NCBI RefSeq assembly: GCF_030815585.1
Contig: NZ_JAUSWY010000001.1
Span: 2,542,001 to 2,606,000 of the forward strand
Source of the DNA: Arthrobacter pascens
Lineage (GTDB): Bacteria > Actinomycetota > Actinomycetes > Actinomycetales > Micrococcaceae
DNA length: 64,000 bases
Direction: 5' to 3'
Made by a program: the position numbers and the translations under genes. Every line of letters begins with the position of its first letter. Position 1 is the first letter of the stretch. This document shows, one piece after another, positions 32,077 to 53,524 of the stretch. The notes under the pieces were generated by a model. It did no database searches, was not told where the DNA came from, and saw nothing but the letters and a program-made list of their open reading frames with translations.

Positions 32077-35000
32077 TCAGCGCACAGCCAGGGCAGCTTC
32101 CCCACGGAACGCTGCAGCCGACAGTTCCAGCCGTACGTCCTCAGGATGGATATCGGCCGGATTGTGGGTCACCAGAACCACCGTGCGTTCCTTCAGGCCG
32201 GCGCGGAGATCCGCCAGCATCGCCCGTCCTGCCTCGGCGTCCAGATGGGCGGTAGGCTCGTCCAGCAGGATCACCTCGGCCCCGGTCATGAGGGTCCGGG
32301 CAACAGCCAGCCGTTGGCGTTCGCCGCCGCTGAGGAACGAGCCTCCCGGTCCGATCCGTGTGTCCAGCCCGGCGGGCAGGCGCGACACGAGGCCGCTGAG
32401 TCCGACGGCGGCAAGGGCAGCATCCAACCCGGCCTCAACGGTACCCGCTGTAACGCTGCCGGGATCCGCGCGCCCGCCGGGGACAGGGCGTCCCAGGAGG
32501 AGGTTGCCCCGGAGCGTGGAATCGAACAGGTGGGCTTCCTGCGGGCACCAGGCGGCCGGGCCCGTGACCCGGACACTCCCGCCGGAGGCGGGAAGGAAGC
32601 CCAGCAGGACAGACAACAGCGTGGACTTCCCCACGCCGGACGGACCGGTGACGGCCAGCCAGCGGCCGGGGCCTGCGCTGGCCGACAGTCCTGAGAAGAC
32701 AGGGGCACCTCCGGGCCACGCGGCCTCAACATTTTCAAGCTCAACACCGGCGGCACCCCCGGCCCGCGCCAAAACCACGTCCCGGCCGTCATCCTCGAGA
32801 CCGCCCAGGACCCGGTTGCTGTCGCCCACGACTCCTGACTGCCCGATCCGCCGCATCACCATACGGAGCGCAGGAAACTGGCGTACCGCCGTCGTCATGG
32901 CTGCGTACGGCTCCACAAGCGCCAGCTGCAGCAGGACAATAACCGCGGCGGTGGCGGGAGGCAGCGTTCCGCCGAGTACCTGCGGCGCAGCCAGCACCGC
33001 GGTTGCCAGGGCCGCGGCTCCGCATGCTGCCGTGGTGATGGCCTGGCCTAGTCCTTCGGCCCACACGGAACGCTGGGATGCCCGGGTTGCGGCGTTGTCC
33101 TCCTCGCGCAGCCCCGCGAGGACTGCGTGGGCCACACCGTTCACATGCAGCTCTGCCCGGGCGTCAAGCGCCGCTGACGTGCGACGGAGAACGCCGGAAC
33201 GCAGGCTTTGCTCGGCGCTGGCCGACTTCCTGTCGCCCCACATTGCAGAGGCCGGGGCCACGAGCAGGCTCACCGCCGCCGCGGCAGCAACGGCCGGAAA
33301 GGCCGCAGGCACAAGCAGCCCGGTGGCCAGTAGGGCGGATACGGCGACGGCGACGGCAGTCAGGGGAGGCAGGACCACCCGAGGCAACAGGTCACGGACG
33401 GTATCGACGTCGTCAATCACCGTTCCCAGGACGTTGCCGCCCTGCAGGAGACGCCGGAGCGAGAGGGCCCTGCGGCTCAATGATTGCCAAAGCCGGCCGC
33501 GCAGCTTGGTGAGCGCGGCGAACACTGCATCGTGCAGCAGGAGCCGTTCCCAATAGCGGACGACGGCGCGGCCGATCCCGAAGAACCGCACACCGACGAT
33601 CGCAGTTAGGAGATAAAGGATGGGCGGCTGCTCGCTGGCCCTGATGATGAGCCAGCCGGACAGCCCGGACAGCGCGACGGCGAACATGGATGCCAGGATC
33701 CCCACCGCCGCGGCGCCGGAGAACCGACCGGCCACCGGTGCCAGCAGCCCGGCCAGGAGGCGGACGGTCAAGGCGGGCCGCCGCTCCGCCGTTGGACCTC
33801 CTGGTGGAAGCGACCGATCTTCCGGCACCGGCAGGCCGGGGCCGTCCGCTGAAGCCGGCACCGGCTCCCGGTCCGGGGTGCTGGCTTCCGCGGCAGCCGG
33901 TACGCCGTGCGACGGCGGCGATTCCGTGCGGCCCCGGGGAGAGACAGCGACGAGGTGGTGGGCCAGTTCGCGGGTCTGTCTGTCGTGGGCCACCAGGATG
34001 ACGGTGACGTGTCCACGGAGATTGCGGATTGCCTCCTGCACCAAGGCGGCGGACTCCCGGTCCAGGTGGGCCGTTGGTTCGTCAAGCAGGAGTACAGTTG
34101 CCCCGGCCCTGATGCGTGCCAGGCTCCTCGCCAGCGCGACGCGGCGCAGCTCACCGGGGCTCAATTCGGCCGGGTGTTTGCCAGCAAGATGGCCGGCAGC
34201 AGCCGCGGCCAGGCAATCCCGCGCCGCGGCGTCGTTCCCGGCTGCTGTTTCCGCGACCGTGCCGGGGGCAGCCGCCTCTGTGGCTGCCGTCCCTGCATCA
34301 GCTGTCCCAGCGGTGAGGTAAAGCAGTACTTCGTCCAGGACTGTCTGCGACACCATGACGGGGTGCTGCGGGACCCACGTGACGGTGTCCCTGTTGAGGC
34401 CGGAGATCCGCCCGGTGACGGAAGTGCCGGCACCGTCGCCGATGGTCCCGGCCAGCACACCGAGGACGGTACTTTTGCCCGCCCCGCTGGACCCGTCGAG
34501 GGCGGTGATTTCACCGTGGCGTGCAGTGAAGCTGAGGGGCCCGACGGCGGAGGCGGACCTTCCGGTGTAGGTAACGGTGAGACCGGCAACGGTGAGATCG
34601 GAACCTGTCACTGGCGGGCCAGAGTCCCCTGCGCTGGCGGGCAGCGGCCGGGGCTCAGGTGCATCGGTGACCGCCTTGGTCTCGGCGAGCGCGGCCCGGC
34701 CGTCATCACTTGCGTGGTGGGCGGTGCCCAGTTCACGGAAGGGAAGATAGCAGTCCGGTGCCAGGATCAGGGCCAGGAGGCCAGCCTCGAGGGCCATGTC
34801 GCCGTGCACCAGGCGTACGCCGATGAACACTGCCACCACCGCTACGGAGATCGTGGCGATGAGTTCAAGCGCCAGGGCGGACAGGAATGCGGTGCGCAGC
34901 GTCCCCATGGTCTTGGCGCGGTACTCGTCCGAGATCTCTTCCAGTGCCTTGCGCTGTGCCGTGGCGCGGCCGAGTCCCACCAGGACCGGCAGGCCTTTGG

Positions 35001-35586
35001 CCAGCTCCAGCATGTGGGCGGACAGCCGGGACAGGGTTGCCTGTGCCTCGCGGACGTTCTGCTCCGTGTACCGTCCGATCAGCACCATAAACAGGGGCAC
35101 CAGCGGAACCGTCAGGACGATCACGACGGCGCTGACCCAGTCCGCAAAGAGGATGCGTGCGCCAAGCAACAGCGGGATGGCGGCGCAATTCACCAGTGCG
35201 GGGATGAACTGGGTGTAGTAGCTGTCCAGAGCGTCCAACCCTCGCGTGGCCAGTACGGCGAGGCCGCCGTCCGCCGGGCCAGTGGCCCGCGCACCGTTCC
35301 GCAATGCGCGCTCAAGCAGTTCGGACCGGAGCTCCTCCTTGATCCCTAGGGCGGCGCGGCGTGCCGCGATGCCCTGTCCCCACACGGTGGCCGATCTCAG
35401 GACAACACCGGCCAGCCCCCACGGAAGCTGGTCCGGCCAGGCGGGGTCCGCTGTCGCCAGTCCGGCCAGCATGGAGGCGACGGCCTGCCCCATCAGGACA
35501 AGGGACAGTGCCTTCAGCGCTGCCAGGAAGCCAAGCCAGTAGATGGCTGAGCGGGTGGCGGGTCCGGCCGGGAACGGTGGGCGCAC
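32077..35586 (-). CDS. cydDC: CydDC thiol-reductant ABC exporter, CydD and CydC fused in one chain
   Basis: Heterodimeric exporters CydD and CydC, needed for cytochrome bd assembly and export of cysteine/glutathione in E. coli, are here one 1169-residue protein. CydD half: six-helix membrane domain (about 10-280), Walker A GSSGAGKST (365-373), signature LSPGE (475-479, degenerate for LSGGQ), DEPTAHLD (502-509). A Pro/Ala linker leads to the CydC half: membrane region (about 640-900), Walker A GPSGVGKST (near 987), intact LSGGERQ and LLDEPTAHLD. The asymmetric nucleotide sites are typical of heterodimeric exporters. It begins 6 nt after cydB, in the cydA-cydB-cydDC operon. GTG start. In this organism the exported thiol may differ from glutathione. 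Confidence 0.93.
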   Translation of the reverse strand: MRPPFPAGPATRSAIYWLGFLAALKALSLVLMGQAVASMLAGLATADPAWPDQLPWGLAGVVLRSATVWGQGIAARRAALGIKEELRSELLERALRNGARATGPADGGLAVLATRGLDALDSYYTQFIPALVNCAAIPLLLGARILFADWVSAVVIVLTVPLVPLFMVLIGRYTEQNVREAQATLSRLSAHMLELAKGLPVLVGLGRATAQRKALEEISDEYRAKTMGTLRTAFLSALALELIATISVAVVAVFIGVRLVHGDMALEAGLLALILAPDCYLPFRELGTAHHASDDGRAALAETKAVTDAPEPRPLPASAGDSGPPVTGSDLTVAGLTVTYTGRSASAVGPLSFTARHGEITALDGSSGAGKSTVLGVLAGTIGDGAGTSVTGRISGLNRDTVTWVPQHPVMVSQTVLDEVLLYLTAGTADAGTAATEAAAPGTVAETAAGNDAAARDCLAAAAAGHLAGKHPAELSPGELRRVALARSLARIRAGATVLLLDEPTAHLDRESAALVQEAIRNLRGHVTVILVAHDRQTRELAHHLVAVSPRGRTESPPSHGVPAAAEASTPDREPVPASADGPGLPVPEDRSLPPGGPTAERRPALTVRLLAGLLAPVAGRFSGAAAVGILASMFAVALSGLSGWLIIRASEQPPILYLLTAIVGVRFFGIGRAVVRYWERLLLHDAVFAALTKLRGRLWQSLSRRALSLRRLLQGGNVLGTVIDDVDTVRDLLPRVVLPPLTAVAVAVSALLATGLLVPAAFPAVAAAAAVSLLVAPASAMWGDRKSASAEQSLRSGVLRRTSAALDARAELHVNGVAHAVLAGLREEDNAATRASQRSVWAEGLGQAITTAACGAAALATAVLAAPQVLGGTLPPATAAVIVLLQLALVEPYAAMTTAVRQFPALRMVMRRIGQSGVVGDSNRVLGGLEDDGRDVVLARAGGAAGVELENVEAAWPGGAPVFSGLSASAGPGRWLAVTGPSGVGKSTLLSVLLGFLPASGGSVRVTGPAAWCPQEAHLFDSTLRGNLLLGRPVPGGRADPGSVTAGTVEAGLDAALAAVGLSGLVSRLPAGLDTRIGPGGSFLSGGERQRLAVARTLMTGAEVILLDEPTAHLDAEAGRAMLADLRAGLKERTVVLVTHNPADIHPEDVRLELSAAAFRGEAALAVR

Positions 35587-35592
35587 GGCCGG

Positions 35593-36642
35593 TCAGCCCT
35601 TCGTGGTGAAGGCCTTGGCGGCTACGGCCGGCAGGAAGCTGTGGGCCTCCGGGATGTGGGCGGCGCTGACGCGTCTCCGGAACACCCAGTACGTCCACGC
35701 CTGGTATGCGATCACCAGCGGCAGGCCAACGGCGGCCACGATGCTCATGAGTCCCAGCGTGTAGTCCGAGGAGGAAGCGTTGGAGATGGTGAGGCTAAAC
35801 TCAGGGTTGACGGTGGAGGGCAGCACTACCGGGAACACCGCCCCGAAAATGGAGGCACTGCCGAGCAGCAGGAAAACCCCCAGCGCCATGAAGGCCCTGC
35901 CTTCGGCTCCCTTATGGGCCAGGAACCAGGCTGCCGCGGCAGCCACAACAGCCACGGCGACGGCTGCCCAGGTCCAGGGTTTGCCGTCCAGGAACTGGAT
36001 GCTGACAGCCCAGCCGGCCATGGGGAGAAGGAGCCACGGAAGCAGCCGGACGAACCATCCGCGCGCGCGGTGGCGTACGTTGCCGTCGGTCTTCAGAGCC
36101 AGGAAGGCCAGGGCGTGCAGCAGCGAGAAACCTGCCACGGCCAGTCCGCCGAGCACGGCATAGCCGCTGAACCAGGCGAACGGACCACCTTCGCGGTCGC
36201 CGTTGGAGTTGAGCGGCAGCCCGGTGGTGGTGAGCGCCAGGGCAGCGCCAACGCCGAATGCCGCGAAGAAGGAGCCCAGGGCGATGGCCCAGTCCCAGCG
36301 GGCGCGCCAGCTGTCGTTGTCCACCTTCCCGCGGTATTCGAACGCCACCGCACGGAAGATGAGGGCTACGAGCACCACCAGCAGCGGGAGGTACAGGGCG
36401 GAAAACAGGGAGGCGTACCAGAGCGGGAAGGCCGCAAAGGTTGCAGCGCCGGCGGTGATGAGCCACACCTCGTTGCCGTCCCAGACCGGTCCTATGGTGT
36501 TGAGGAGAACCCTCCGCTCGGTATTGTCGCGGGCGAAGAGCTTCATCAGCATTCCGACGCCGAGGTCAAAGCCTTCCAGGAAGAGGTATCCGGTCCACAG
36601 CACCGCGATGACAATGAACCAAATGGTGGGCAGCAGTTCCAT
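35593..36642 (-). CDS. cydB: Cytochrome bd ubiquinol/menaquinol oxidase subunit II
   Basis: Membrane subunit of the bd-type quinol oxidase, 349 residues, about nine hydrophobic helices. It starts MELLPTIWFIVIAVLWTGYL and contains the family segment GPVWDGNEVWLI, plus FPVVLPSTVNP near the C-terminal third. The ATG at 36642 has AGAGGA upstream. CydA lies 21 nt upstream and cydDC 6 nt downstream, so the operon is compact. CydB holds no heme ligands itself; it packs against CydA and supports proton delivery. Confidence 0.96.
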   Translation of the reverse strand: MELLPTIWFIVIAVLWTGYLFLEGFDLGVGMLMKLFARDNTERRVLLNTIGPVWDGNEVWLITAGAATFAAFPLWYASLFSALYLPLLVVLVALIFRAVAFEYRGKVDNDSWRARWDWAIALGSFFAAFGVGAALALTTTGLPLNSNGDREGGPFAWFSGYAVLGGLAVAGFSLLHALAFLALKTDGNVRHRARGWFVRLLPWLLLPMAGWAVSIQFLDGKPWTWAAVAVAVVAAAAAWFLAHKGAEGRAFMALGVFLLLGSASIFGAVFPVVLPSTVNPEFSLTISNASSSDYTLGLMSIVAAVGLPLVIAYQAWTYWVFRRRVSAAHIPEAHSFLPAVAAKAFTTKG

Positions 36643-36663: not shown

Positions 36664-38253
36664 TTAGTAGGCGAACGCCAGGACGTCGCCGGTGCCCGGT
36701 CCGTCCGGGCCGGGGGTGGCGTCCTCGTTTTCATCGACGGGCGCGTGGGCCAGTTCCGGCATGGCGGAAACGACGCCGCCGCGGATGTACTTGACCAGGA
36801 GCTTCACCTCAACCACCAGGAGCACCGCATAGATGGAAGTCAGGACCACCAGCGACGTCAGCAGCTCTCCGGCCGAGACGCCCGGCGACACTGCGGCCGC
36901 GGTGAACATAAACACCTGGTCTATGCCGTTGAAGTCCGGGTTGGGTGCCACCACAAACGGTTGCCGACCCATTTCGGTGAAAATCCACCCTGCCGCGTTG
37001 GCACCGAAGGGCGCCAGGATGCCGAAGACGGCCAGGCGCATCAGCCAGCGGGACTCGGGAACGGTTCCGTTCCGCGTCACCCACAAGGCAATGAGAGCCG
37101 CGAGGGCCGCGAGTCCGCCGAACCCGATCATCATGCGGAATCCCCAGTACGTGACCTCCATGACGGGCACGTACTCGATCTCCTGGCCGGCACGCTCTCC
37201 ATAGACCGGGTTGTCCGGCAGGTTTGTTCCGTAGTCGGCCTTGTACTGGTCCAGGAGGCTGTTGACGCCCTTGACCTCGGTGGTGAAGTTGCCCTTTGCC
37301 AGGAAGGACAGGATCCCTGGGACCTCGATCAACGCCACGATGTCATCGCAGTTCCGCGACCCCAGGTTGCCGACGCTCAGGACCGAGAAGCCGGTGCCGT
37401 CGTGGCACGCGGCCTCAGCGGCCGCCATTTTCATGGGCTGCTGCTCAAACATCAGCTTTCCCTGCAGGTCGCCGGTGAGGGCGGTGCCGGCAAAGGAAAT
37501 CATGGCGACGACGGCGCCGATGCGCAGGGAGCGGATCCAGACTTTGTGGTCTGTCCGGTCACGGCCGGGGATGTCCGCTTCCCCGGGGACCACCTTGCCG
37601 TCGGCACCCACGGTATCGACGCCGTCGCGCCGCCTCCGCCACAGGTGGTACCAGGCGATGCCCAGCAGGAAGCCTCCGGCCACTGCCAACGCACCGAACA
37701 GCGTGTGGGGAACAGCGACCAGTGCTGTGTTGTTGGTGAAGACCGCCCACGCGTCCGTCATCACCGGCCGGCCGTTGACCAGCTCCACTCCCACGGGGTG
37801 CTGCATCCAGCTGTTGGCCACAATGATGAAGTAGGCGGAGAACACCGAGCCCACCACGGCGATCCACAGGCAGGCCAGGTGGATGCCGGGCTTCAGCTGC
37901 TTCCAGCCGAAGATCCAGAGGCCAAGGAACGTTGATTCGACGAAGAACGCCAGCAGGGCTTCGAGTGCCAGCGGTGCGCCGAATACATCCCCTACGAACC
38001 GGCTGTATTCGCTCCAGGCCATGCCGAACTGGAATTCCTGGACGAGGCCGGTGGCCACGCCCATGATGAAATTGATCAGGAAGAGCTTGCCCCAGAATTT
38101 GGTCATCCGGAGGTATTCAGGGTTGCCGGTGCGGTGCCAGGCCGTCTGGATCACAGCCACCACCAAGCCAAGACCAATGGTGAGCGGAACCATCATGAAG
38201 TGGTAGACGGTGGTGATGCCGAATTGCCAGCGTGCGATTTCCAAGGCGTCCAA
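36664..38253 (-). CDS. cydA: Cytochrome bd oxidase subunit I
   Basis: Heme-carrying subunit of the high-affinity terminal oxidase (529 residues from the chosen start). Visible family motifs: the N-terminal YHFMMVPLTIGLG with heme b595 ligand His; LEALLAFFVESTFLGLWIFGW with the conserved Glu pair; MGRQPFVV corresponding to GRQPW; and a short Q-loop, as in actinobacterial/Bacillus-type CydA. I place the start at the TTG at 38253 (MDALEIARWQFG), which is the usual N-terminus; a GTG at 38280 is possible but lacks a ribosome site. The upstream region carries two TTCTAC-N5-GTAGAA operators, one of which covers the -10 box, implying repression by the divergent BlaI-like protein. Confidence 0.95.
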   Translation of the reverse strand: MDALEIARWQFGITTVYHFMMVPLTIGLGLVVAVIQTAWHRTGNPEYLRMTKFWGKLFLINFIMGVATGLVQEFQFGMAWSEYSRFVGDVFGAPLALEALLAFFVESTFLGLWIFGWKQLKPGIHLACLWIAVVGSVFSAYFIIVANSWMQHPVGVELVNGRPVMTDAWAVFTNNTALVAVPHTLFGALAVAGGFLLGIAWYHLWRRRRDGVDTVGADGKVVPGEADIPGRDRTDHKVWIRSLRIGAVVAMISFAGTALTGDLQGKLMFEQQPMKMAAAEAACHDGTGFSVLSVGNLGSRNCDDIVALIEVPGILSFLAKGNFTTEVKGVNSLLDQYKADYGTNLPDNPVYGERAGQEIEYVPVMEVTYWGFRMMIGFGGLAALAALIALWVTRNGTVPESRWLMRLAVFGILAPFGANAAGWIFTEMGRQPFVVAPNPDFNGIDQVFMFTAAAVSPGVSAGELLTSLVVLTSIYAVLLVVEVKLLVKYIRGGVVSAMPELAHAPVDENEDATPGPDGPGTGDVLAFAY

Positions 38254-38282: not shown

Positions 38283-38299
38283 TTCTACGATGCGTAGAA
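38283..38299. promoter_or_regulatory. BlaI-type operator O1 (TTCTAC-N5-GTAGAA)
   Basis: Perfect inverted repeat: TTCTAC (38283-38288), GATGC, GTAGAA (38294-38299). It lies just downstream of the candidate cydA -10 box, near the expected transcript start, and 24 bp from the neighbouring copy, so two dimers could bind on nearly the same DNA face. Confidence 0.75.
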
Positions 38300-38306
38300 C
38301 TCTGAC

Positions 38307-38323
38307 TTCTACCGAGTGTAGAA
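38307..38323. promoter_or_regulatory. BlaI-type operator O2, covering the cydA -10 box
   Basis: Perfect inverted repeat: TTCTAC (38307-38312), CGAGT, GTAGAA (38318-38323). The candidate cydA -10 hexamer (38320-38315, minus strand) lies entirely within it, so binding should block RNA polymerase. Arms are identical to those of O1 and O3 while the central five bases differ. Confidence 0.78.
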
Positions 38324-38344
38324 CAATGCTACGGGCACTGTAAA
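38315..38344 (-). promoter_or_regulatory. Candidate cydA promoter
   Basis: Minus strand: -35 TTTACA (38344-38339, five of six consensus bases), 18-nt spacer, -10 TACACT (38320-38315, four of six). Initiation about 7 nt later falls in operator O1. The same -10 hexamer appears before the gene at 53545, which also carries a related operator. Confidence 0.6.
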
Positions 38345-38395
38345 CCAACAGTTCCACTAAGAAGTGCCCTCCACAAGGCTGCGGCGCGCCCATTG

Positions 38396-38412
38396 TTCTA
38401 CCTGACGTAGAA
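38396..38412. promoter_or_regulatory. BlaI-type operator O3, nearer the repressor gene
   Basis: Perfect inverted repeat: TTCTAC (38396-38401), CTGAC, GTAGAA (38407-38412), about 89 bp from O2 and 106 bp before the BlaI-like start codon. It probably serves autoregulation of the repressor/peptidase pair. I could not place a convincing promoter for that pair, though TATAGT at 38463-38468 is a possible -10. Confidence 0.72.
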
Positions 38413-38492: not shown

Positions 38493-38517
38493 TGCGGGGA
38501 ATCTAAGGATGTATCGA

Positions 38518-38904
38518 ATGGCTAGTCTTGGTGAACTGGAACGGGCAGTGATGGACTTGCTCTGGGCGGGCCAGGAGGCAGCCACGGCGAATACCCTGCG
38601 CGACCGGCTGGCGCAGAGCACCGAGGCCCATGGGGGCGCAGCAGGCCACGAAGGCAAGGAACTGGCCGTCACCACTGTGCTGACCGTGCTCTCGCGGCTG
38701 GAGAAGAAGGGCCTGGTGGAGCGGGAACGTGGCACCCGGCCGCACCGCTATCAGGCAGTTTCCAGCCGGGAAGACCATACGGCCGAGCTGATGCATGAAG
38801 TTCTGGGATCCGCCCCTGACCGTGAAGCCGTGCTGGCACGGTTCATCGGCTCCGTGACGGAAAGTGAAGCCGAAACGCTGCGCAAACTGCTTGGCCACTT
38901 CTAG
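38518..38904 (+). CDS. BlaI/MecI/CopY-family winged-helix repressor
   Basis: A 128-residue transcription factor. The N-terminal winged helix (MASLGELERAVMDLLW to about 80) includes LAVTTVLTVLSRLEKKGLV, the usual recognition-helix region, followed by a dimerisation helix pair. ATG at 38518 is preferred over one 9 nt earlier because AAGGA lies 8 nt before it and homologues start MASLGEL. BlaI/MecI proteins bind palindromes as dimers and are inactivated by proteolysis through an M56 partner, which is the next gene, 6 nt downstream. The classical targets are beta-lactam resistance genes. Here the divergent gene is cydA and three identical-arm palindromes lie between. An Ala/Gly/His-rich insert (EAHGGAAGHEG) sits before the recognition helix. 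Confidence 0.92.
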   Translation: MASLGELERAVMDLLWAGQEAATANTLRDRLAQSTEAHGGAAGHEGKELAVTTVLTVLSRLEKKGLVERERGTRPHRYQAVSSREDHTAELMHEVLGSAPDREAVLARFIGSVTESEAETLRKLLGHF

Positions 38905-38910
38905 CGGACC

Positions 38911-39918
38911 ATGTTCTGGACCTCATATCTGCTGGCGGTCCTTGCGATAGTCCTGGCGTGGCCGGTGCCTATCTTCCTTTCGCGTGCCCAGTGGCCGGCC
39001 CGGTCGCCGTTCACGGCGATGCTCCTGTGGCAGGCCATTGCCCTTGCCGGTGGTCTCTCCATGATCGGCGCCATGCTCGTGTACGGCCTGGAACCCATCG
39101 GAGACAATCTGATCGCCGGCCTGCGCGCGCTTGCCGGGATGGTGCTGTTCAATGCCCCCACCACCGCGCTCGGCTTCTGGCACCTCTTTGCCCTCTCCGC
39201 GGCGGCGCTGCTGACCGCCCACCTGGTGTTCACCCTGCTGCTCACCTACTACAGGATCGAGCGGCAGCGGCGGCGGCACCGTGAACTCCTGGCGCTGCTG
39301 GCTTCACCTTCCGCGGAGGGGGCGGGAACTGTGGTCATCAGCCACGACTCGCCGGTGGCCTACTGCCTTCCCGGCGGCGCGCGTTCTGTCACCGTATTGT
39401 CGGATGGCCTCATGGCTGCCCTTGAGCCCGCCGAGCTGCGGGCTGTCCTGATCCATGAGAACGCCCATCTCAGCCAGCGCCATCATCTCCTGCTCTGGGC
39501 CTTCGCCGCATGGCGCCAGGCACTGCCCTGGCTTCCGACCACCCGCCTGGCCCAGGAGTCGGTGAACTCCCTCATCGAAATGCTGGCCGATGATGTCGCC
39601 CTCAAAACCGAAAGCAAGGCCACGCTCATCAAGGCCATCGCCATAGTGGCAAGCGGCTCGCAAGGTTCCGGTCCGGCGGGATCCGGAGCTGCTGCCGACT
39701 TACTACCAGGGCAGGACAACCTTGCCCTGGCCGGGGTGGAGGCAGCGGCCGGAGTCACCGGCTCGGAATCCGCACGCACTACGGCCTCGCGTGTCAGCCG
39801 CCTGCTGTCACCCCGTCCGCAGCTGCCCGCTTCGGCACGCGGGACGGTGCTGGCCGGGTGCGTCCTGCTCCTGGCCCTGCCAACGGCCCTGCTGATCGTC
39901 CCGGGCCTGCTGGGCTGA
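38911..39918 (+). CDS. M56-family membrane metallopeptidase (BlaR1/MecR1-like, no penicillin-binding sensor)
   Basis: A 335-residue membrane protease. Three or four N-terminal helices are followed by a cytosolic domain with the zinc motif HENAH (182-186) and the downstream ligand region ESVNSLIEMLADD. A final helix (TVLAGCVLLLALPTALLIV) closes the chain. BlaR1/MecR1 have about 585-600 residues because they carry an extracellular penicillin-binding sensor; that domain is absent here, so beta-lactam sensing by the classical route is unlikely. The signal may be sensed by the membrane part itself. It is cotranscribed with the repressor (6-nt gap) and ends 20 bp from the convergent parE gene. Confidence 0.9.
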   Translation: MFWTSYLLAVLAIVLAWPVPIFLSRAQWPARSPFTAMLLWQAIALAGGLSMIGAMLVYGLEPIGDNLIAGLRALAGMVLFNAPTTALGFWHLFALSAAALLTAHLVFTLLLTYYRIERQRRRHRELLALLASPSAEGAGTVVISHDSPVAYCLPGGARSVTVLSDGLMAALEPAELRAVLIHENAHLSQRHHLLLWAFAAWRQALPWLPTTRLAQESVNSLIEMLADDVALKTESKATLIKAIAIVASGSQGSGPAGSGAAADLLPGQDNLALAGVEAAAGVTGSESARTTASRVSRLLSPRPQLPASARGTVLAGCVLLLALPTALLIVPGLLG

Positions 39919-53507: not shown

Positions 53508-53524
53508 TACTACATGGCGTAGAA
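53508..53524. promoter_or_regulatory. Fourth BlaI-type operator, upstream of the small membrane protein gene
   Basis: TACTAC (53508-53513), ATGGC, GTAGAA (53519-53524): 11 of 12 arm bases match the three cyd/BlaI operators with the same 5-nt centre length. It ends 8 nt before the TACACT -10-like box and 20 nt before the start codon, so a bound repressor would cover the -35 region. Confidence 0.65.

Follow-up and report, generated by a model that had tools for sequence, protein, structure and literature searches.

A conserved TTCTAC-N5-GTAGAA operator points to a BlaI-type regulon of cytochrome bd, haem and respiratory genes in Arthrobacter pascens

The 64,000-nucleotide stretch of DNA from the soil bacterium Arthrobacter pascens analysed here (the window) carries two divergent gene sets. 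On the reverse strand lie cydA, encoding cytochrome bd subunit I (36664-38253; PF01654, 501.7 bits), cydB, encoding subunit II (35593-36642; PF02322, 337.9 bits), and cydDC, in which CydD and CydC are fused in one frame of 1169 aa (32077-35586; TIGR02857 and TIGR02868, both over cut-off). On the forward strand are blaI (38518-38904), encoding a 128 aa BlaI/MecI-family repressor that has no cysteine, and a gene for an M56/M48-type membrane metalloprotease of 335 aa (38911-39918). The gap between cydA and blaI contains three exact copies of the palindrome TTCTAC-N5-GTAGAA, none assigned to a strand, just as the original prediction had reported: copy 1 with the centre GATGC (38283-38299), copy 2 with CGAGT (38307-38323) and copy 3, upstream of blaI, with CTGAC (38396-38412). 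The open frame of cydA extends to 38280; its start is probably the TTG at 38253, judging from relatives, in which this position is ATG, TTG or GTG in 66 of 80 loci, the search expression having failed to match in the remaining 14. The frame of blaI opens at 38509, and its ATG at 38518 is kept in 46 of 80 relatives, the remaining 34 not being matched by the search expression.

A chance origin of the exact sites was considered and was ruled out by counts in the window and the genome. Three occur in the window, against 0.00013 expected from a first-order Markov model of the window, and eight occur genome-wide, against 0.0095 expected from a first-order Markov model or 0.042 from base composition alone; a reversed control pattern gave one exact match genome-wide. 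Sites with up to two mismatches number five in the window against 0.37 expected, a count reached in 0 of 100 shuffles. Genome-wide, the nine one-mismatch sites represent background, since the reversed control pattern yields 10 (by subtraction). One such copy, TACTACATGGCGTAGAA, lies at 53508-53524 of the window and is probably due to chance because one-mismatch sites are at background in this genome. A scan of ten reference proteins against eight one-mismatch loci (L172-L179) found none of them there.

The arms of the palindromes had been proposed to be under selection, and comparison with relatives agrees with this. In 75 cydA-blaI gaps, taken from 80 BlaI loci on gap length alone (L070, L072, L075, L108 and L125 were dropped), identity to the window base was 0.987 for the arms, 0.59 for the centres and 0.48 for the remaining gap. 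The arms of copies 1 and 2 were identical to the window's in 75/75 of these gaps, and arm identity for copy 3 was 0.96. The corresponding values for 60 gaps that include the window were 0.997, 0.75 and 0.62, the arm figure being circular because these loci were picked for three exact sites. Among the 80 named BlaI loci, which were not chosen for having sites, three exact sites were found upstream of blaI in 74, two in 3 and one in 3. At L070, where cydA lies 3.8 kb off, two sites stay with cydA and one with blaI; at L072, a span of 6 kb held no recognisable cydA, and one site is still beside blaI. Since both loci retain a copy at blaI, copy 3 appears to belong with that gene.

A candidate cydA promoter was read by eye on the reverse strand, with a -35 box TTTACA (38339-38344) and a -10 box TACACT (38315-38320) separated by a spacer of 18. 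In agreement with the prediction, copy 2 covers this -10 box, and its centre is partly conserved so as to keep the box. Copy 1 had been expected to cover the transcript start; with these boxes the start would instead lie at about 38308, on the distal margin of copy 2, which places copy 1 in the early cydA leader. The position of copy 2 on the candidate -10 box and of copy 1 in the early leader would be a geometry of repression, and the location of copy 3 suits autorepression of blaI.

Assignment of the repressor to the BlaI/MecI family was upheld along the whole protein, which matched PF03965 (Penicillinase_R) with 76.4 bits, over a curated cut-off of 22.6, across profile positions 1-113 of 115. 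No other full-length PF03965 gene was found in the genome; two partial hits span only half the profile. The nearest solved structure is 2g9w (E 4.7e-16), which we take to be Rv1846c of M. tuberculosis. A CopY-like copper repressor, or metal sensing by BlaI itself, was also considered and rejected, the equivalog score being 26 bits against 121.95 and the protein lacking the cysteines that form the C-terminal metal site of CopY.

The adjacent protease scored 39.7 bits against PF01435 (M48; cut-off 20.3) and 23.4 bits against PF05569 (M56), below the cut-off of 31. However, a Mycobacterium-type counterpart, 36% identical, passes the M56 cut-off (39 vs 31), and precomputed annotation assigns both M56 and M48 domains to many close homologues; we therefore call the protein M56-like and not a formal member of the family. 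Thus, the predicted M56 protease beside blaI misses the PF05569 cut-off, but it keeps the zinc-site residues, namely HExxH at residues 182-186 and E223. H182, E183, H186 and E223 are invariant in 13/13 aligned proteins, the relatives having been picked using HExxH. Hydropathy placed membrane segments at both the N- and the C-terminus. A penicillin-sensor domain was not detected by Pfam or NCBIfam, and a classical beta-lactam sensor was rejected on this ground. Fold comparison of the predicted structure (pLDDT 58, from a 23-row alignment) was too weak to support or oppose a BlaR1 fold, and PDB sequence searches with the protease returned nothing or M48-type peptidases only. As a separate observation, Cys152, in the motif AYCxPG, lies just ahead of the HExxH helix and is kept in Mycobacterium-type homologues; the cysteine of this motif occurs in 13/13 aligned proteins and in 98% of 84 (L207 has Gly), and it is possible that it serves as a redox or metal switch.

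Outside the cyd gap, the genome holds five exact sites, each upstream of one unit. One precedes a histidine phosphatase gene, followed by genes for a ResA-like thioredoxin, a DsbD_TM (CcdA-like) protein, ResB and a cytochrome c assembly protein, and another precedes hemQ, followed by the genes for ferrochelatase (hemH) and porphobilinogen deaminase (hemC). The other three stand before a PPOX-like gene (PF12900), before hmp, whose flavohaemoglobin product has globin, FAD and NAD domains and scores under NCBIfam's own cut-off, and before mem123, a gene for a 123 aa membrane protein (L008, 1603-1974) that neither Pfam nor NCBIfam assigns to a family. The eight exact sites of this genome include none at atp genes. 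In nine sister genomes, all 39 non-cyd sites that were listed and fetched (for G001, counted among the matches listed) lie just upstream of orthologues of those five genes, with 9 at the histidine phosphatase gene, 9 at hemQ, 8 at hmp, 8 at mem123 and 5 at the PPOX-like gene. Furthermore, every one of 37 same-genus genomes, our own included, has 3-9 exact sites against 0-3 for controls. These results suggest that the operator marks out at least seven transcription units of this genome as one regulon. The original prediction of control over cydA agrees with the sequence evidence, which favours action on cydABDC and blaI, and its scope was too narrow.

Seven Micrococcaceae genomes of other genera, chosen for having many sites, hold 7-15 each, with 0 in controls. 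From six of these we fetched 43 loci with 45 exact sites, leaving out G371 altogether and, in G351, G391 and G404, the cyd-blaI groups; at 18 of the 43 loci the site precedes core genes or blaI/cydA. Pfam searches placed sites before SURF1, sdhC and cytochrome c oxidase subunit II; before a UbiA-family gene, which we read as ctaB; before hemA in two cases, one of them divergent from hemE; before an ABC transporter followed by ctaA (L301); before CopC and CtaG/CopD; before a membrane gene followed by a PCu(A)C chaperone; and, in one genome, before an AtpI-like gene with ATP synthase A (L318). Loci assigned by eye only were L303 (CopC-like), L317 (subunit II) and L316, L323 and L329, which resemble L301. 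Three of the 43 (L319, L332 and L336) have a site with no clear respiratory gene, and the sites at L299 (isocitrate lyase), L308 and L310 do not clearly fit the respiratory picture.

Beyond the Micrococcaceae the exact motif is rare, being found in 1 of 22 genomes from other families. A broader but strict form, TWCKAC-N5-GTMGWA, was sought upstream of BlaI homologues. At the order level, where the Micrococcaceae themselves are counted, it occurs in 27 of the 30 best loci; at the class level, 7 of 23 additional loci have it, with 12 more at one mismatch; six of these 53 loci (L197, L198, L215, L223, L224 and L231) lack even a one-mismatch site. The cydA gene is divergent at most order-level BlaI loci and, by reading, at part of the class-level ones. 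Six genomes of a Mycobacterium-type genus were also searched, and chosen sites were fetched from four; we took them to be mycobacterial because their BlaI, in the one genome tested, matches 2g9w at E 3.8e-69. A TACKAC-N5-GTMGTA site lies upstream of blaI at L341 and L348, and in 4/4 fetched genomes a TACKAC-type site lies close upstream of cydA, away from blaI (L342, L346, L349 and L352). At L344, L353 and L356, such a site lies 219-251 nt ahead of an AtpI-like frame that is followed by atpB, the latter identified at L344 by Pfam as ATP synthase A. These sites were selected from a list, and counts of the degenerate motif in the six genomes (5-15 genome-wide vs 10-17 for the control) show no enrichment, so the weight of the sites rests on position.

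In M. tuberculosis, BlaI is reported to bind at the cytochrome bd and ATP synthase promoters (PMC5473688, citing Sala 2009), with which the sites at Mycobacterium-type cydA and atp genes agree; it represses Rv1303-atp transcription (PMC12565901) and also controls blaC (PMC12565901, PMC8265638). The accompanying BlaR is reported to have no beta-lactam sensor domain, what it senses being stated as an open question (PMC5473688), and it was essential by TnSeq with haem as the iron source (PMC7058343). The M. tuberculosis BlaI (Rv1846c)-BlaR (Rv1845c) system shares with the present locus a BlaI-type site before the cyd genes; here, however, blaI and the M56-like gene are divergent from cydABDC, the operators are three of TTCTAC type, hemQ-hemH-hemC, cytochrome c maturation and hmp are added, and no beta-lactamase target was noticed. 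PetR-PetP of Synechocystis likewise combines a BlaI-family factor with a BlaR1-family membrane protease in a pair that rewires electron transport, but in a cyanobacterium and through a copper-driven swap of plastocyanin and cytochrome c6 with a four-protein regulon, in which PetR represses petE and activates petJ (PMC7896320, a commentary). HrrSA of Corynebacterium glutamicum is a further comparable case, with a haem-responsive regulon that has terminal oxidase genes among its members (PMC7337898), although it is a two-component system of unrelated mechanism. Control of bd oxidase by BlaI is not new in kind because of the mycobacterial precedent. Literature searches, which covered few subscription journals, found no description of a BlaI haem/cytochrome/NO regulon or of a TTCTAC operator in Micrococcaceae, and PMC12140626 does not mention BlaI or BlaR. 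As far as these searches show, the new elements are the operator and how strictly it is conserved, its connection with haem synthesis, cytochrome c maturation and NO detoxification, and the wide association of cydA with BlaI.

To identify the protein that owns the sites, we scored one draw of 120 Micrococcaceae genomes for site and for BlaI. The site was present in 107 of 108 BlaI-bearing genomes and in 1 of 12 BlaI-less ones (Fisher p 1e-13, ignoring kinship); the exceptions were G417, with BlaI and no site, and G387, with a site and no BlaI. Four of the 108 (genus g146) had a weak, perhaps non-orthologous BlaI hit only. All 12 BlaI-less genomes have HemQ, and CydA is over cut-off in seven, with one weak partial hit in addition; 20 loci around hemQ or cydA in these genomes showed no exact or degenerate site. 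Within genus g141, two genomes have BlaI and one site each, and three have neither. Comparison of operators with recognition helices at 81 loci (18 without a strict site, 3 unscored) showed that TTC operators pair with the helix TTV[LH]TVL[STE]RLE in 45/45 loci and TAC operators with TT[VI]MTVL[DQ]RLA in 15/15. Two changes are required to place the TAC label on the BlaI tree, so that operator base 2 and the helix probably changed jointly in one or two events, and the 60 loci therefore do not amount to 60 tests. Arm conservation, co-occurrence with BlaI, the operator and helix changes, and the cydA site in four Mycobacterium-type genomes with blaI elsewhere together support the BlaI-like protein as the owner of the sites that would control cydABDC and blaI. 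The palindromes might instead be bound by another regulator, such as the Rrf2/NsrR-like protein encoded just upstream of hmp, itself a usual NsrR target, with blaI merely one among several site-bearing genes. We consider this improbable, since the sites vanish with BlaI even where the target genes stay and base 2 of the operator changes along with the BlaI recognition helix; moreover, G056, outside the family, retains a single exact site, which lies in its cydA-blaI gap, and the TAC-N5-GTA core of the palindrome resembles known BlaI-family operators.

It is likely that dimeric BlaI (38518-38904) would act as a repressor on TTCTAC-N5-GTAGAA, two sites blocking the cydABDC promoter, the third blocking blaI's own promoter and so providing autoregulation, and single sites placing histidine phosphatase-resA-ccdA-resB-ccsA, hemQ-hemH-hemC, hmp, the PPOX-like gene and mem123 under the same control. 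The possibility that BlaI is an activator, or a repressor at some targets and an activator at others, as PetR is at petE and petJ (PMC7896320), is a minor but real one, and the sites of other genera, which precede not only bd oxidase but also aa3 oxidase and ATP synthase genes that cells might shift oppositely, are in keeping with it. However, the cydA sites, on the candidate -10 box and downstream of it, occupy positions typical of repression, and M. tuberculosis BlaI lowers Rv1303-atp transcription (PMC12565901). That the pair is instead a beta-lactam sensing BlaR1-BlaI system touching respiration incidentally could be argued from the solid BlaI membership and from mycobacterial control of blaC (PMC12565901, PMC8265638), yet it seems the least probable reading of all. 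The 335 aa protease has no penicillin-sensor domain by Pfam or NCBIfam, and no beta-lactamase gene was noticed in the five non-cyd 3-kb loci (by eye) or beside the cyd sites, a reading that covered some 1.5 kb around each of the eight exact sites, which fits the earlier proposal that the system acts on respiration instead of a beta-lactamase. The staphylococcal BlaI-BlaR1 and MecI-MecR1 systems differ from the present one, which has no penicillin-sensor domain and has respiratory targets. The arms of the staphylococcal BlaI/MecI operators also differ from the TTCTAC type.

Within the favoured reading of BlaI as a repressor of respiratory genes, the protease step is less sure than repressor, operator and regulon. 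The M56 protease would probably cleave or release BlaI upon failing haem, cytochrome or terminal-oxidase capacity, a signal that we offer as a guess, with haem or copper shortage, NO, cyanide or an oxidase block as candidate triggers; release would then induce, as one set, bd oxidase, the supply of haem, the assembly of cytochromes and the removal of NO. A signal from haem, copper, NO or electron flow is conceivable, the leads being the target list, the need for M. tuberculosis BlaR on haem (PMC7058343) and the copper-driven PetR-PetP (PMC7896320). More tentatively, and with doubt outweighing confidence, the sensorless BlaI-M56 pair could be an ancient actinobacterial monitor of the haem and copper cofactor status of the respiratory chain, extending from Micrococcaceae to mycobacteria, in which control of beta-lactamase would be a side branch. 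The M56 protein would then respond to quinone/NO stress or to a failure of oxidase assembly, perhaps via the conserved Cys152 close to its zinc site, and would thereby release bd oxidase, the synthesis of haem, the assembly of cytochromes and the defence against NO.

The BlaI family is best known from penicillin resistance and here probably runs respiration. Such a role would turn the family from antibiotic-resistance repressors into one that governs aerobic energy metabolism in a large part of a bacterial class, and the 12-base operator would make its regulons readable from genomes. The locus also offers a non-pathogenic model in which to ask which signal a BlaR-type protease lacking the penicillin domain responds to, with relevance to M. 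tuberculosis, whose bd oxidase and ATP synthase count among drug-related targets.

Small membrane proteins recur beside the operator. The gene mem123 lies behind it in eight of the nine sister genomes, the ninth (G001) being judged among the sites listed for it, and the listed mem123 homologues are nearly all unnamed or hypothetical. In two other Micrococcaceae genera, a 117 aa membrane protein with no Pfam match is encoded behind an operator (L330, 2049-2402; L338, 1640-1993), and at the Mycobacterium-type loci L340 and L354 a TAC-type site lies by the gene for a conserved membrane protein of about 144-176 aa.
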